Source: a virus
Reading direction: 5' to 3' (one strand)
Virus record (IMG/VR): IMGVR_UViG_3300021976_000047
Span: 1 to 33,666 of that record
DNA: 33,666 bases
The notes beneath the pieces were generated by a model. That model worked only from the letters and a program-made list of their open reading frames with translations, was not told the origin of the DNA and ran no database searches. Positions 3,470-33,661 of the stretch are shown one piece after another. Position numbers and translations under genes: made by a program. Within the stretch, counting starts at the first letter, position 1, and each line of letters begins with the position of its first letter.

Positions 3470-3696
3470 GCACCTCGGTCGAGCCGGACATGTGGCCGCA
3501 GTACCGACCGCACCCTGTTCAGGTGGCGTGTGTCTTCCCCGGATGTGACCAGACCGGCGACCGGCACGTCCACTCGTTCTGGTCGGTCGACCCCACCTGC
3601 GACGACTGCACCTGGATCGACATCCACTCCTACACCCAGGCTGAGCCAGTCCTCCGGCAGCTCGACACGCCCTGCCTCAAGCACAGAGCCCACTGA
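3466..3696 (+). CDS. Small Cys/His-rich protein, possible zinc binder
   Basis: A 76-residue protein whose ATGA overlaps the end of the preceding gene. It has two Cys-containing halves: CVFPGCDQTGDRHVH and CDDC, plus a late CLKHRAH. The spacing could bind one or two zinc ions and resembles small actinophage Cys-rich proteins of unknown role. It overlaps the next gene by one base. Function unknown. Confidence 0.64.
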   Translation: MSTSVEPDMWPQYRPHPVQVACVFPGCDQTGDRHVHSFWSVDPTCDDCTWIDIHSYTQAEPVLRQLDTPCLKHRAH

Positions 3697-3929
3697 TGAC
3701 CGCCTTAAAAGATCGGCTAGAATCCCTCGTCCAGGAGTGGGACCACACCGAGTTCAAGCGCACCGACGAGGAGCACGAGTGGGTCTGCACCCACTGCCGA
3801 CGTTTCACCTTCGGCAAAGCCCGATGGCCCTGCGCCTCCCAGCGCTACTCCGACAAGCTCCTCCTCACCATCGACCCAGCCCTCTGGACCCCACTCTCGA
3901 AAGATCAGAACGAGATGGACGACAACTGA
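3696..3929 (+). CDS. Small CxxC protein, last gene of the early operon
   Basis: A 77-residue protein. Residues about 27-47 carry CTHC and a later Cys (RWPCASQRY), which suggests a treble-clef-like zinc site. Its second to fifth codons read ACC GCC TTA AAA; TTA is very rare in this genome and is part of an A-rich motif copy (3704-3715). A variant copy (TCGAAAGATCAG) lies near its end. It finishes just before the late control region. Confidence 0.62.
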   Translation: MTALKDRLESLVQEWDHTEFKRTDEEHEWVCTHCRRFTFGKARWPCASQRYSDKLLLTIDPALWTPLSKDQNEMDDN

Positions 3930-3951
3930 TCAGGTAGATGGACTGATCGGT

Positions 3952-3979
3952 TATCCTGTGTGTCAACAACAGACACACA
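3952..3979 (+). promoter_or_regulatory. Late control promoter-like -10 with operator (8-bp arms)
   Basis: A -10-like TATCCT (3952-3957) runs into TGTGTGTC (3957-3964), AACAACA and GACACACA (3972-3979), an inverted repeat with perfect 8-bp arms. The predicted start of transcription falls inside the operator, so binding would shut off the operon starting with terS. No good -35 is visible, so the promoter may need an activator. A similar TTATCCT precedes the scaffold gene at 8110-8116. Confidence 0.6.
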
Positions 3980-3989
3980 GCCACAAGCG

Positions 3990-4040
3990 GAGGAGGTTCA
4001 CATGGTCACACCAGGCCAGCGGTCGGATGTGAACCTCCTC
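3990..4040 (+). promoter_or_regulatory. 14-bp perfect hairpin hiding the ribosome binding site ahead of terS
   Basis: The arms GAGGAGGTTCACAT (3990-4003) and ATGTGAACCTCCTC (4027-4040) are perfectly complementary, with a 23-base loop. The left arm contains AGGAGG (3991-3996) and the first two bases of ATG 4002, so in RNA it would block initiation of the leader peptide. As DNA it could be a terminase recognition site, since it lies just ahead of terS. The repeat itself is certain; its role is inferred. Confidence 0.75.
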
Positions 4041-4082
4041 TTCCGCTCCTCTGAGGTTCAGGAACTGAGAGTTCCTCGATGA
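4002..4082 (+). CDS. 26-aa leader peptide coupled to terS
   Basis: A short reading frame with an ideal ribosome binding site (AGGAGG, five bases before ATG) encodes 26 residues beginning MVTPGQRSDVNLLF. Its stop overlaps the terS start (ATGA at 4079-4082). terS itself has only a weak GAGAG upstream, inside a small hairpin, so it may depend on translation of this peptide. The start lies inside the 14-bp hairpin, and the peptide spans the alternative pairings. This layout is typical of translational coupling or attenuation. Confidence 0.55.
   Translation: MVTPGQRSDVNLLFRSSEVQELRVPR
4030..4076 (+). promoter_or_regulatory. Alternative pairing segment and small hairpin before terS
   Basis: TGAACCTC (4030-4037, part of the right arm of the 14-bp hairpin) can also pair with GAGGTTCA at 4053-4060, a second copy of the left-arm sequence. 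The two pairings exclude each other. AGGAACT (4060-4066) and AGTTCCT (4070-4076) form a further 7-bp hairpin ending two bases before terS ATG. Seen as DNA, these are three copies of GAGGTTCA (3993, 4030 inverted, 4053). Confidence 0.55.
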
Positions 4083-4621
4083 CCACCAACGCGGTAGGGA
4101 CCTACCAGGGTCGAACCTCCAGAGACCGCCTCCGTGAAGGCGAGATGATCCTGCGGGACAAGAACGCCGGAGCCACCACCACCCAGCTGATGGACCGGTA
4201 CGGGATCTCCCAGGCCACGGTGTTCCGTCGGCTCAAGGAAGCTCTCGATGCCCGGCTAGCCATCACAGTCGATGAGTACCGCGAAGCCCAGGACGAGGTC
4301 CTGGACAACCTGATGGCCCGGCACGAGACCTCACTCCTCCAGCTCGACAGTCTCATCACCCAGGCCGCTGGACGAACCCCAACGGGCGGTGTCCACAGCG
4401 ACGAGACCTTGGAGCGGATTCAGAAGCTCATCCTCCAGAAGACCAAGGTCTATGACTCGATCCTGCAGGTGCAGAACCGCAGGGCCCGGCTCCACGGGAC
4501 CGACCGACCGCAGCAGGTCGATGTCACGGTGACCCAGACCGACCAGCGGGACCTCGAACTCCAGGAGCTGATCCGCGAAGCACGGGCCAAGGCCCAGCTC
4601 GGCCAGGAGGCGAAGGCATGA
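4079..4621 (+). CDS. terS: Terminase small subunit
   Basis: A 180-residue DNA-recognition subunit of the packaging motor. Residues about 15-55 hold a helix-turn-helix (MDRYGISQATVFRRLKEALD), followed by a long helical, coiled-coil-like oligomerisation region (about 60-150) and a charged C-terminus, the usual small-terminase plan. It lies 440 bases ahead of the large subunit with two small genes between. The ATG overlaps the leader peptide stop. The assignment rests on fold pattern and position, since small terminases diverge strongly. Confidence 0.78.
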   Translation: MTTNAVGTYQGRTSRDRLREGEMILRDKNAGATTTQLMDRYGISQATVFRRLKEALDARLAITVDEYREAQDEVLDNLMARHETSLLQLDSLITQAAGRTPTGGVHSDETLERIQKLILQKTKVYDSILQVQNRRARLHGTDRPQQVDVTVTQTDQRDLELQELIREARAKAQLGQEAKA

Positions 4622-4716
4622 CCCTCGATGACTTGATCCGAATTCTCCGCAGCATCGTCAAGCCCATCCTCGACACGAAGAAGCTCAAGAAGAGCGACTT
4701 CACCTTGGCGAACTGA
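4618..4716 (+). CDS. 32-aa basic peptide between terminase genes
   Basis: The ATG overlaps the terS stop (ATGA at 4618-4621), and the stop overlaps the next gene's ATG (TGATG at 4714-4718). It encodes 32 residues, an amphipathic helix rich in Lys (IRILRSIVKPILDTKKLKKS). Coupling on both sides and the absence of any gap support a real gene. Function unknown; position suggests a packaging accessory. Confidence 0.58.
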   Translation: MTLDDLIRILRSIVKPILDTKKLKKSDFTLAN

Positions 4717-5075
4717 TGACGGCGCTTGAGGTGGAGCCGACAGACCGTGCGAAGTCGATGGCGATGAACGCACTGCGGAGACTCTCCACCACCGAGGTCG
4801 AAGGACTGGGGATCGCCCTGGAGAAGCTGGCCGTGGTCGAGATGCACATGATCTCCTCCCTCCCCCAGCTCCGTGCCGCAGCCACCAAGGAGCGCGCCCT
4901 CCGCGCAGCCAAAGGGCTTCCTCCCGAAGGACCCTTCACCATGGCGACCCGAGAGATCTACCAGCTGATCCACGCGGTGACCGAGGCGATCGAGCAGACC
5001 AACCAGGCCACCATCACCGGCAAGGTCCCGCGCCGTAAGTCATCACGTCGAGGACCAGGCGATGCTGCCGCGTGA
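4716..5075 (+). CDS. Hypothetical protein between terS and terL
   Basis: A 119-residue protein that is mostly alpha-helical with an Ala-rich middle and ends in a basic tail (GKVPRRKSSRRGPGDAAA). It is coupled to the gene before it and overlaps terL by 14 bases. It carries no catalytic motif that I can see. The basic tail could contact DNA or the terminase. Family not recognised. Confidence 0.68.
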   Translation: MTALEVEPTDRAKSMAMNALRRLSTTEVEGLGIALEKLAVVEMHMISSLPQLRAAATKERALRAAKGLPPEGPFTMATREIYQLIHAVTEAIEQTNQATITGKVPRRKSSRRGPGDAAA

Positions 5076-6576
5076 GCTGGAGACCTACTTCAGCTACCTC
5101 CCCGAAGGCTGGGAGAACTCCCCGGTAGGTCGCCGGACCGCCTGTGAAGAAGATCCCCTCGCCTGGGCGTTCGTCTACATGCGGTCCCACCTGAAGCTGC
5201 AGGACACCGACATCATCAGCTTCGCCGAGATCCACTCCGAGTGGGCCCGCTACGCCAAGAGCTGGATGAACCCGGCCACGATCCCCTCCGCTCACCGCGA
5301 CGTGTTCATCGCCCCGCGTGGCTGCGGCAAGTCGACCTGGTTCTTCCTCCTGCTCCCGCTCTGGGCTGCCTGCTATGGCTACGTCAAGTTCGCAGCCGCG
5401 TTCGCCCACCGCGCTGAGCAGGCCGAGCAACACCTGATGACGTTCAAGGCCGAGCTGGAGCGCAACGAACTCCTCCGCAACGACTTCCCCGAGCTGTGCA
5501 CCCCCGCCACCCGACCACGCGGTAGCACCATCGCCGACAACCGCGCCATGCTGCAGACCTCCTCCGGGTTCGTCTTCGCCGCACGCGGTGTTGACTCCGG
5601 AAACCTCGGCCTCAAGGTAGGTAACCTCCGTCCCGACCTGATCATCTGCGACGACATCGAGCCCGACGAGTCCAGCTACTCCCCGTACCAGGCGACGAAG
5701 CGGCTCAGCACCCTTAACGACGCAGTCCTGCAGCTCAACGTGTTCGCCCGTGTGGTCTGGGTTGGCACCGTCACCATGGCTGGGTCCTTGATCCACCAGC
5801 TCTCCCGATCCGTGAATAGCACTGAGGAGCCGGAGGATTGGATCAGAGACGAGCGATGGGCCGTCCACTACTCTCCGGCCATCCTGGTCAACGACGACGG
5901 CTCAGAACGCAGCCTGTGGCCGGAGAAGTGGTCCATCGATTTCCTCCACTCGATCCGGCACACCACCAGCTACGCCAAGAACTACGCCAACCTCCCGGTC
6001 AGCCGCGACGGCGCGTACTGGACCCCGGACCAGATCATCACAGTGCCCGCACCGGACCACTTCAGCCTGACCATGCTGAGCATCGACCCTGCGGTCACCA
6101 CCAAGACCACCTCCGACTTCACCGGCATTGCCCTCCTCGGGTGGGACAAGCCGACCAACAAGGTCTACGTCCGCGCCGTGTGGAAGGTGAAGCTCAGCGG
6201 GATGAAGCTCAAGGCCAAGGTCGCCGAGATCCTCGGCCTCTACCCCGAGATCGGTGTTCTGCTGTGTGAGACCAACCAGGGCGGGGATCTGTGGCAGGGG
6301 CTGTTCGGCAGCCTCCCGGTCCGCTACCTCGGTCTACCGCAGTCGGTGAAGAAGGAAGTGCGCGGTGGCATCCTGCACACCGGATACCAGAAGCGGCAGG
6401 TCCTCCACACAGCTGCGTTCCCGGAGCTGGAGACCGAACTCCTCGCCTTCCCCCACGGGCTGAACGACGACCTGACCGACGCGGTCGGCTCTGGCTACAA
6501 CTGGCTGTGCGACCCGACCGGCAAGCGGAAGAGCGTCTCCCGGTTCCGCGCCACCTCCCGGTCCTATGCCGAATGA
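5062..6576 (+). CDS. terL: Terminase large subunit
   Basis: A 504-residue packaging motor with an ATPase and a nuclease domain. Walker A is APRGCGKST (residues 84-92) and Walker B LIICDDIEPDE (193-203). The C-terminal RNase H-like nuclease shows the expected acidic residues: D342 (LSIDPA), E403 (LLCETNQGGD) and the HGLNDDLTDAV motif (D470, D473). All are intact and the length is normal. The start lies 14 bases inside the upstream gene. It cuts concatemers and pumps DNA through the portal encoded next. I cannot tell cos from headful packaging from the sequence. Confidence 0.95.
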   Translation: MLPRELETYFSYLPEGWENSPVGRRTACEEDPLAWAFVYMRSHLKLQDTDIISFAEIHSEWARYAKSWMNPATIPSAHRDVFIAPRGCGKSTWFFLLLPLWAACYGYVKFAAAFAHRAEQAEQHLMTFKAELERNELLRNDFPELCTPATRPRGSTIADNRAMLQTSSGFVFAARGVDSGNLGLKVGNLRPDLIICDDIEPDESSYSPYQATKRLSTLNDAVLQLNVFARVVWVGTVTMAGSLIHQLSRSVNSTEEPEDWIRDERWAVHYSPAILVNDDGSERSLWPEKWSIDFLHSIRHTTSYAKNYANLPVSRDGAYWTPDQIITVPAPDHFSLTMLSIDPAVTTKTTSDFTGIALLGWDKPTNKVYVRAVWKVKLSGMKLKAKVAEILGLYPEIGVLLCETNQGGDLWQGLFGSLPVRYLGLPQSVKKEVRGGILHTGYQKRQVLHTAAFPELETELLAFPHGLNDDLTDAVGSGYNWLCDPTGKRKSVSRFRATSRSYAE

Positions 6577-6586
6577 CACCGACAAG

Positions 6587-6619
6587 CTGACACGTCAGAC
6601 ACAGCTCCGCCCGTAAACT
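6587..6619 (+). promoter_or_regulatory. Possible promoter/operator ahead of the portal gene
   Basis: The gap between terL and portal contains CTGAC-AC-GTCAG (6587-6598), then GACACAG (6598-6604), then a -10-like TAAACT (6614-6619) identical to the one at 2363. The upstream CTGACA is 21 bases away, too far for an ideal -35. The GACAC half-sites match the operator family. An internal late promoter is possible but not sure. Confidence 0.4.
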
Positions 6620-6651
6620 GAGGACACGGCTTCAAACGGAAGGTGCCCAGC

Positions 6652-28291: not shown

Positions 28292-28344
28292 GAAACCCCG
28301 CACATGTCACAGGTCGTCCCACCTAGATCCGTGTGCGGGGTTTC
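28292..28344. terminator. Bidirectional terminator between convergent operons
   Basis: A perfect 13-bp stem (GAAACCCCGCACA 28292-28304, TGTGCGGGGTTTC 28332-28344) has a 27-base loop. It is followed by TCTTTG on the plus strand and, on the minus strand, by a T-run (CTTTT). It separates the late operon (ends 28285) from the leftward operon (ends 28354) and can serve both. Confidence 0.9.
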
Positions 28345-32477: not shown

Positions 32478-33623
32478 GTGCAGGTCACCTTCGATCGAGA
32501 CCCACGGTCTCTCGAATCCGACACAGACATCTTCCTCAAGCACTTCCACACCCCTAGTCGTCTTCAGGTCGCCTCTCAGGTCCCCGGAGCGAAGGCTCTG
32601 AAGTTCTACTGGGTCCGCCCGTGCGAGGTCGTCTTCTTCGCCTGGATCGTGGTGAACAATCCGACCTACTTCAACCACATGGTCTTCGACCTCGACGGGG
32701 GACGGGTCAACGCTTTGGAGCGGCTCCAGAGGTTCATCGACCGCACCGGGATCTCCGGCACCGCAGTCCTGTCACCGAACGGGTTGCACTTCTGGGTCCG
32801 GATCGATCCGGTCTACCGCAGGCACTCGTCCTCGGTGGATTACTACTGGGCGGTCTGGGACAACATCAACCGCGTGCTGCAGGGCGACCTCGGCTACAGC
32901 GGGCACAGCGCCCGGAACCCGGAGTACGGCGACGCGGTGCGATACGAAGGCTGGGACCGCGTCTACGGGCTCGGGGAGCTTAAGCAGGCTCTGGGCTCGG
33001 AGTGGGAGTCCTCGAACTTCCTGACGAGGGTCAAGCGGTTCGAGGGTGGTGGTCTGGGTCGAAACCCCGCTCTCTACAGCGCGGTCCACGGGAAGGTCAA
33101 GGAGACCAACGATCTCGACCAGGTCATCCAGTTGGCGAGAGACCTGGCCCCGGAGTTCCTCAAGGATGGGAAGCCCCTCCCCGACGCGGAGGTCCGGGCG
33201 ATCGCCTTGTCGGTCTACCGCCGTCGCGGTCAGGGCGGGTACGGCGCGGAGACTCTCGCCCGGTTCGGTCGCAAAGGTGGGAAGAAGAACTCCGAGGCGC
33301 AGCGGGAGCAGCGGGAGAAGTCCATCGGGGTGGTCAACGCGGACCGGTCGGTGAAGTCCCAGAGCCGGGCGTCTGAGGCTCACCAACTTCGTCGCCGGGG
33401 ATTGACCCTGCGGAAGGTCGCGGAGGCCTTGAGCGTGAGCCTGGCGACGGTGAAGCGGTACCTGAGCACCGCAGTCCGCGTGTTGCTGGACCTGAACCCG
33501 GCGAACCGCAAGCCTAGGAACACCGGCCCCACCGACCGCGTGCAGACCCTGGCTCGTCGACTCCTCGGCGTGAAGCCGATTCGAATCCCTGCGGAGACCC
33601 TCGCGGAGGTGAACACGTCGTGA
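32478..33623 (+). CDS. repA: RepA: plasmid-type replication primase
   Basis: A 381-residue replication initiator of the ColE2/pAL5000 'Replicase' type. The primase core (about 1-165) shows VFDLDGG (D71, D73), SPNGLHFWVRID (H104) and GHSARNPEYGD (143-152), the usual acidic and 'RNP' motifs. Residues about 195-250 match a PriCT-like helical region (VIQLARDLAPEFLKDGKPLP). Residues about 307-330 form a helix-turn-helix (GLTLRKVAEALSVSLATVKR) for origin binding. GTG 32478 is the first start behind the structured leader. It should open the origin by laying a primer, with host polymerase and helicase doing the rest. RepB follows with a GTGA overlap. Confidence 0.86.
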   Translation: MQVTFDRDPRSLESDTDIFLKHFHTPSRLQVASQVPGAKALKFYWVRPCEVVFFAWIVVNNPTYFNHMVFDLDGGRVNALERLQRFIDRTGISGTAVLSPNGLHFWVRIDPVYRRHSSSVDYYWAVWDNINRVLQGDLGYSGHSARNPEYGDAVRYEGWDRVYGLGELKQALGSEWESSNFLTRVKRFEGGGLGRNPALYSAVHGKVKETNDLDQVIQLARDLAPEFLKDGKPLPDAEVRAIALSVYRRRGQGGYGAETLARFGRKGGKKNSEAQREQREKSIGVVNADRSVKSQSRASEAHQLRRRGLTLRKVAEALSVSLATVKRYLSTAVRVLLDLNPANRKPRNTGPTDRVQTLARRLLGVKPIRIPAETLAEVNTS

Positions 33624-33661
33624 GCGAGTACGAGCCGTACGAAACGCCGTGGGGATGGCGT
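33536..33661. repeat. Terminal direct repeat, right copy
   Basis: Identical to bases 1-126. See the left copy. Confidence 0.93.

Follow-up and report, generated by a model that had tools for sequence, protein, structure and literature searches.

Several phage genes are known in which the ribosome-binding site is hidden in RNA structure. In the RNA phage MS2, a strong stem hides the SD sequence of the maturation gene in the finished RNA and the protein is translated from nascent RNA, a specific folding intermediate having been shown by experiment (PMC6071253). In phage T4, the genes e, soc, 49 and I-TevI have the SD and/or the AUG locked in an RNA helix, and late promoters start RNA inside the hairpin, with the result that the 5′ arm is dropped (PMC3014915). 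Among actinobacteriophages, the SAS and ESAS elements of Cluster K mycobacteriophages are inverted repeats with a variable spacer that lie near translation starts, the ESAS recurring at many genes (PMC3203893), and Cluster O mycobacteriophages carry 34 copies of a 17-bp palindrome, TGTTCGG-N3-CCGAACA, with a fixed 3-nt spacer (PMC4351075). Here we describe a leader ahead of a small terminase gene that belongs by its predicted fold to the general class of occluding hairpins, in that both an SD and most of a start codon lie in a stable stem.

The DNA analysed is an IMG/VR virus record, and the window (the whole stretch of 33,666 nt) holds one genome. The ends of the contig overlap, the first 126 bases (1-126) being repeated at 33536-33661, and the genome therefore closes to a circle of 33,535 bp; odd bases at the contig's very end probably hid this circularity from the end classification, which reads 'linear'. 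The phage is unclassified and of actinobacterial type, with recognisable head and packaging genes (TerS, TerL, portal and capsid). A replication gene of plasmid type (Replicase family, 32478-33620) spans the circle join, and no integrase was recognised when the ORF list was read by eye; the phage may persist as a plasmid.

The leader occupies a gap between a 77-aa ORF (3696-3929) and terS (Table 1). Near its left end is a TATCCT box that the consensus promoter scan did not pick up and for which a convincing −35 was not found, so that this promoter is putative. Elsewhere in the window, CAGACAC-N11-TAAACT occurs with identical spacing at 2338-2366, upstream of the gene at 2375, and at 6590-6622, upstream of the portal gene, and is a possible promoter type common to those two genes.

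Table 1. Sequence features of the leader and the terminase module.
Feature	Position	Strand	Basis
Widest intergenic gap (149 nt) among the array of rightward genes that precedes the tail genes	3930..4078	+	Hand-made gene list
Candidate −10 box, TATCCT	3952..3957	+	Read from sequence
Perfect 9-bp inverted repeat CTGTGTGTC-N7-GACACACAG, a TGTGTC-N-GACACA member	3956..3980	.	Repeat search; RNA hairpin −12.9 kcal/mol
Complete stem-loop, the 14-bp stem being prolonged outward by 6 bp beyond a 3-nt bulge; −32.2 kcal/mol	3986..4047	+	Predicted folding
Stem left arm, holding the SD AGGAGG (3991-3996) and the AU of the leader AUG	3990..4003	+	Inverted-repeat search
26-codon leader ORF, MVTPGQRSDVNLLFRSSEVQELRVPR	4002..4082	+	ORF list; codon usage
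Stem right arm, within the leader ORF	4027..4040	+	Inverted-repeat search
GAGGTTCA, third GAGGTTC copy; may pair with 4030-4037 (8 bp, −8.8 kcal/mol)	4053..4060	+	Predicted pairing
7-bp hairpin, 4060-4066/4070-4076, −6.6 kcal/mol, ending two nt before the terS ATG	4060..4076	+	Predicted folding
terS, small terminase subunit, N-terminal helix-turn-helix	4079..4621	+	phrog_645; Zuko TerS is the best named match
32-aa ORF with its own AGGAGG and an ATGA overlap with terS	4618..4716	+	Sequence
119-aa ORF, overlapping the preceding stop (TGATG) and terL	4716..5075	+	ORF list
terL, large terminase subunit; 46-51% identity to the closest relatives, most of them Streptomyces prophages	5062..6576	+	Homology search

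The first-pass annotation had described a perfect 14-bp hairpin in this gap that hides an AGGAGG and a start codon, and our analysis bears this out. The arms (3990-4003/4027-4040) pair perfectly across a 23-nt loop, and the left arm runs from one base 5′ of the AGGAGG through the U of the AUG, leaving the third base of the ATG (4002-4004) outside. All other perfect inverted repeats of the genome are shorter, and of 60 dinucleotide shuffles of its whole sequence one produced a perfect repeat of 14 bp or more. The complete stem-loop has a folding z-score of −4.28. Its folding energy alone is ordinary for so GC-rich a genome, at least 15 other 62-nt places being equal or stronger, and what is unusual is the perfect complementarity and its placement on the SD and AUG, not the stability. 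Beyond this leader, no SD inside a perfect stem of more than 8 bp was found in 1.14 Mb of related phage DNA among 867 SD-start hits, in which overlapping SD forms are counted separately and distinct sites are fewer. Within the window, no Rfam family matched at its gathering score. The start itself looks genuine, because AGGAGG-N4-9-ATG occurs at six sites on the + strand and the five others each open a gene-like ORF, of 32 to 1246 aa. The 14-bp repeat is a real, unusual and probably functional element.

The 26-aa leader ORF and its ATGA overlap with terS (4079-4082), by which its TGA stop overlaps the terS start codon, had likewise been read correctly. Its coding score (LLR −4.9) falls in the range of off-frame sequence and under the lowest value for any in-frame window of 26 codons in the gene set used. 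With such non-coding-like codon usage the leader ORF resembles a device for ribosome entry more than a gene for a peptide, and pairing accounts better than coding for the right arm, which lies within the ORF; on the same grounds we reject the idea that the 26-aa product is a genuine small protein. It had also been said that terS lacks a good ribosome site of its own. The SD of terS is indeed weak (−6.2 kcal/mol, where strong sites reach about −12), but weak SDs abound in this genome and the property is ordinary rather than distinctive. The stop/start overlap and the want of a strong SD at terS are both what translational coupling calls for. Downstream, the terminase module is a chain of overlapping genes, consisting of terS, the 32-aa ORF, the 119-aa ORF and terL, and the sealed start stands at the head of this chain.

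Predicted folding argues against one part of the earlier interpretation, namely that mutually exclusive hairpins form a two-state switch. The alternative 8-bp pairing (4030-4037/4053-4060) and the 7-bp hairpin do exist. The former, however, is about 23 kcal/mol weaker than the 14-bp stem (−8.8 versus −32.2 kcal/mol) and is consequently too weak to compete unless something else holds the left arm. The 7-bp hairpin, said to end at the terS ATG, stops two nucleotides short of it and is by our estimate about at chance level for a stretch of such length. A perfect 9-bp hairpin that had been overlooked (3956-3980) and the 7-bp hairpin fold together with the 14-bp stem, and are not exclusive with it. 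Opening the leader initiation region is predicted to cost 25.5 kcal/mol, which ranks second from the top among 32 starts. When growth of the RNA was simulated, the cost of opening the SD remained near 2 kcal/mol until about position 4030 and was about 15 by 4042, the right arm having been added. Since the cost is low until the right arm is made, a ribosome would have roughly 40 nt of transcription in which to bind.

We propose that the element acts as a translational gate to the terminase module, namely an RBS-occluding stem that keeps terminase translation low, and we put the probability of this reading at roughly 0.55. The sole strong ribosome site before terS (AGGAGG-N5-AUG, 3991-4004) is at the same time the left arm of the stem, and the finished transcript would barely allow initiation. 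On nascent RNA, a ribosome could initiate before the right arm appears. It would then translate through the stem, thereby opening it, stop at the ATGA and restart on terS, and the overlapping ORFs further downstream would carry the coupling toward terL. The peptide would probably be irrelevant, the leader ORF serving as a delivery device. Two outcomes would follow: (i) a low terminase yield relative to the capsid proteins, limited per transcript; and (ii) silence of terS on old or read-through transcripts. This scheme supposes that the RNA folds in the cell as drawn, that the leader is translated and that terS depends on it, and we infer that the stem is opened kinetically rather than by a protein or by RNase III. 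Several observations count against the gate. The evidence comes from a single genome, GC-rich DNA elsewhere in it folds as stably, and the 32-aa ORF has a strong SD of its own, which makes a second entrance to the chain through which terL could be reached without the gate.

A more speculative extension, which we offer tentatively and do not expect to hold in full, is that a kinetic lock sets the dose of the packaging motor. The leader would be coding-neutral and would feed the chain of overlapping terminase genes, its SD would be sealed seconds after synthesis, each transcript would allow few rounds of terminase translation, and the lock might be tied to the adjoining TGTGTC-N-GACACA dyads.

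The scarcity of terminase relative to capsid proteins in tailed phages is usually explained by promoters and weak ribosome sites. If the gate is true, it would be a simple and testable form of terminase dose control in a tailed phage, outside the RNA phages and T4. The element is compact, at about 100 nt, and might be put to use in actinobacterial expression as a translation element of fixed, low output. The first-pass annotation went too far in holding that such a device is not known from any described phage, because SD occlusion is established for T4 e, soc, 49 and I-TevI and for the MS2 maturation gene. The idea of SD occlusion is thus familiar; its use ahead of terminase genes seems new. 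A literature search by title, abstract and full text, with many journals outside its coverage, found no SD-sequestering hairpin at a small terminase gene.

Close relatives of this locus were found neither by TerS or portal nor by the hairpin as a DNA pattern or the leader as DNA, and none of the relatives found by capsid protein had a TerS match; the searches may omit the records nearest to the window's own genome, and the statement that there is no relative is limited accordingly. No TerL match found exceeds 51% identity, and the named TerL relatives are Streptomyces phages, Microbacterium phages and the satellites MiniFlayer and MulchRoom. Streptomyces prophages found by TerL have TerS homologues, and upstream of their terS genes no matching hairpin was found. 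They carry instead a conserved motif, CCTACGATTCAAAGGT, upstream of terS, and a variant form of it directly after terL. The motif CCTWCGATTCAAAGGT brackets the terminase genes, with one copy shortly before terS and another shortly after terL, ahead of the portal gene, at L008:4299 and L008:6559, at L012:4092 and L012:6558, and at other Streptomyces prophage loci. Within the window, an 8-mer is the only leader motif common to terS and portal.

The best named TerS matches, Zuko and KimJongPhill, have a perfect hairpin of 11-12 bp between a promoter-like TTGACA-N17-TACCAT and the terS SD. In KimJongPhill (L098:3770-3830) and Zuko (L101:3400-3470), the promoter overlaps the left arm of the hairpin and the right arm adjoins the SD, which is the layout of the T4 gene e barrier. 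The long hairpin is absent from three of the five distinct sequences of this group, the three being metagenomic relatives that have kept the promoter. Judged from these sequences, a hairpin in this position is a recurring feature without being an ancestral element that has been conserved. The hairpins of Zuko and KimJongPhill favour the gate, and the lack of one in the three relatives and in the Streptomyces prophages counts against it.

The 14-bp inverted repeat of the window might function at the DNA level and not as RNA, and two explanations of this kind have to be weighed. The first is a packaging (pac) site, in which GAGGTTC copies and the inverted repeat are putative TerS-bound DNA sites near the first terminase cut. 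Three copies of the repeat had already been seen and are present, and a fourth that had been missed (GAACCTCC, at 4113 inside terS) brings GAGGTTC to four copies within 130 bp; two copies beyond the hairpin arms, as close to a stem arm as these are, occur at 0.8% of random positions. In MiniFlayer and MulchRoom, which have related TerL proteins, the direct terminal repeat, and with it the packaged DNA, begins 167 and 33 bp upstream of terS, and by this analogy the location would suit a packaging site. There are repeated DNA motifs ahead of terS in the Streptomyces prophage relatives, and circularity of the contig is the expectation for headful packaging. The TerS proteins of MiniFlayer and MulchRoom are, however, not detectably similar to that of the window and their ends are without a comparable repeat, and a pac site leaves unexplained why one arm lies on a strong SD-AUG whose reading frame ends at a stop overlapping the start of terS. 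We consider a packaging site an unlikely explanation of the element. Unligated cohesive ends at the hairpin were rejected, the assembly being gapless through the region.

The second explanation is transcriptional control, in which the 9-bp and 14-bp repeats would be operators through which a phage regulator acts on the packaging-gene promoter. The 9-bp repeat lies directly after the TATCCT box and belongs to a dispersed family, TGTGTC-N(3-13)-GACACA, with copies at 731, 3959, 8229, 10024, 17375, 19616, 24915 and 32142, within and between genes. On the + strand, TGTGTC occurs 15 times and GACACA 14 times, and they form eight ordered pairs within 14 nt where 0.097 are expected (the maximum in 20,000 trials was 3). 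In the reverse order, GACACA followed by TGTGTC, the genome has no pair within 14 nt; its next-best hexamer dyad has three copies, and the TGTGTC-N-GACACA dyad is absent from 1.13 Mb of relatives. Copies inside genes have a common codon phase, which we attribute to codon preference; the pairing is not so explained. The family has the appearance of a set of binding sites or hairpins particular to this phage. By reading of the ORF list, the genes upstream include several for small predicted DNA-binding proteins, and the Streptomyces relatives have their conserved motif before both terS and portal. The 14-bp repeat, by contrast, is not one of these dyads and does not recur as a pair of arms elsewhere in the genome, and arms that are 23 nt apart and coincide with an SD-AUG would be atypical of an operator. 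We regard the 9-bp repeat as a likely operator and the 14-bp repeat as a less likely one; as an account of both together, transcriptional control seems improbable.

It is considerably more doubtful that the hairpin is a transcription attenuator or terminator that stops upstream read-through before terS. A similar geometry is found between convergent genes at 28292-28344, where a perfect 13-bp stem, closing a loop of 27 nt and followed by a T-rich tail, is a likely terminator. That stem, however, is followed by TTTCTCTTT, whereas the stem before terS is followed by TTCCGCTCC, which has no T tract, and the consensus terminator scan, which covers loops of 3-8 nt, found none here. A trp-type transcription attenuator is rejected on the same sequence, which has no U tract after the stem. 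The earlier suggestion of attenuation or a translational switch survives in part: an SD-hiding hairpin on a leader coupled to terS fits, but attenuation is not supported, as no U-tract terminator was found and the leader SD is sealed. Finally, a barrier of the T4 gene e type, in which the stem forms only in read-through RNA and a promoter inside the hairpin gives translatable RNA, fits the layout of KimJongPhill and Zuko (TTGACA-N17-TACCAT over the left arm, SD adjoining the right arm) but is very improbable here, since the window SD belongs to the left arm: a transcript that includes the leader SD must include the right arm too, and one begun within the loop would be without that SD.

With the translational gate as the preferred reading, the leader can be set beside the known systems. 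The dispersed dyads, in and between genes, resemble the Cluster O palindromes; the spacers here vary from 3 to 13 nt and the copies number eight, and the comparison concerns the 9-bp repeat, not the 14-bp gate. Cluster K SAS and ESAS resemble the gate as actinobacteriophage inverted repeats near a translation start, but the gate is single copy, and the 13-mer of the SAS, GGGATAGGAGCCC, has no match in the window within two mismatches, while matches with three mismatches are at chance level. In erm leaders, a short leader ORF and hairpins precede the regulated gene, the leader SD is open and a second SD is sealed. The likeness is confined to the short leader ORF and the hairpins, because here the leader SD itself is sealed; with the leader start among the two highest opening costs, an erm-type translational attenuator is rejected. 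In contrast to T4 e, soc, 49 and I-TevI, the SD of the leader is part of the 5′ arm, so that RNA without this arm would not retain the SD, and there is no evident promoter inside the hairpin. The MS2 maturation (A) leader differs in that the gated start here belongs to a leader ORF coupled to terS, and the gate is a predicted one. With the MS2 leader it would share an SD hidden in the finished RNA, an expected translation from nascent RNA, and a product that is a low-copy virion-assembly protein. On paper, we suggest, the element works most like MS2.
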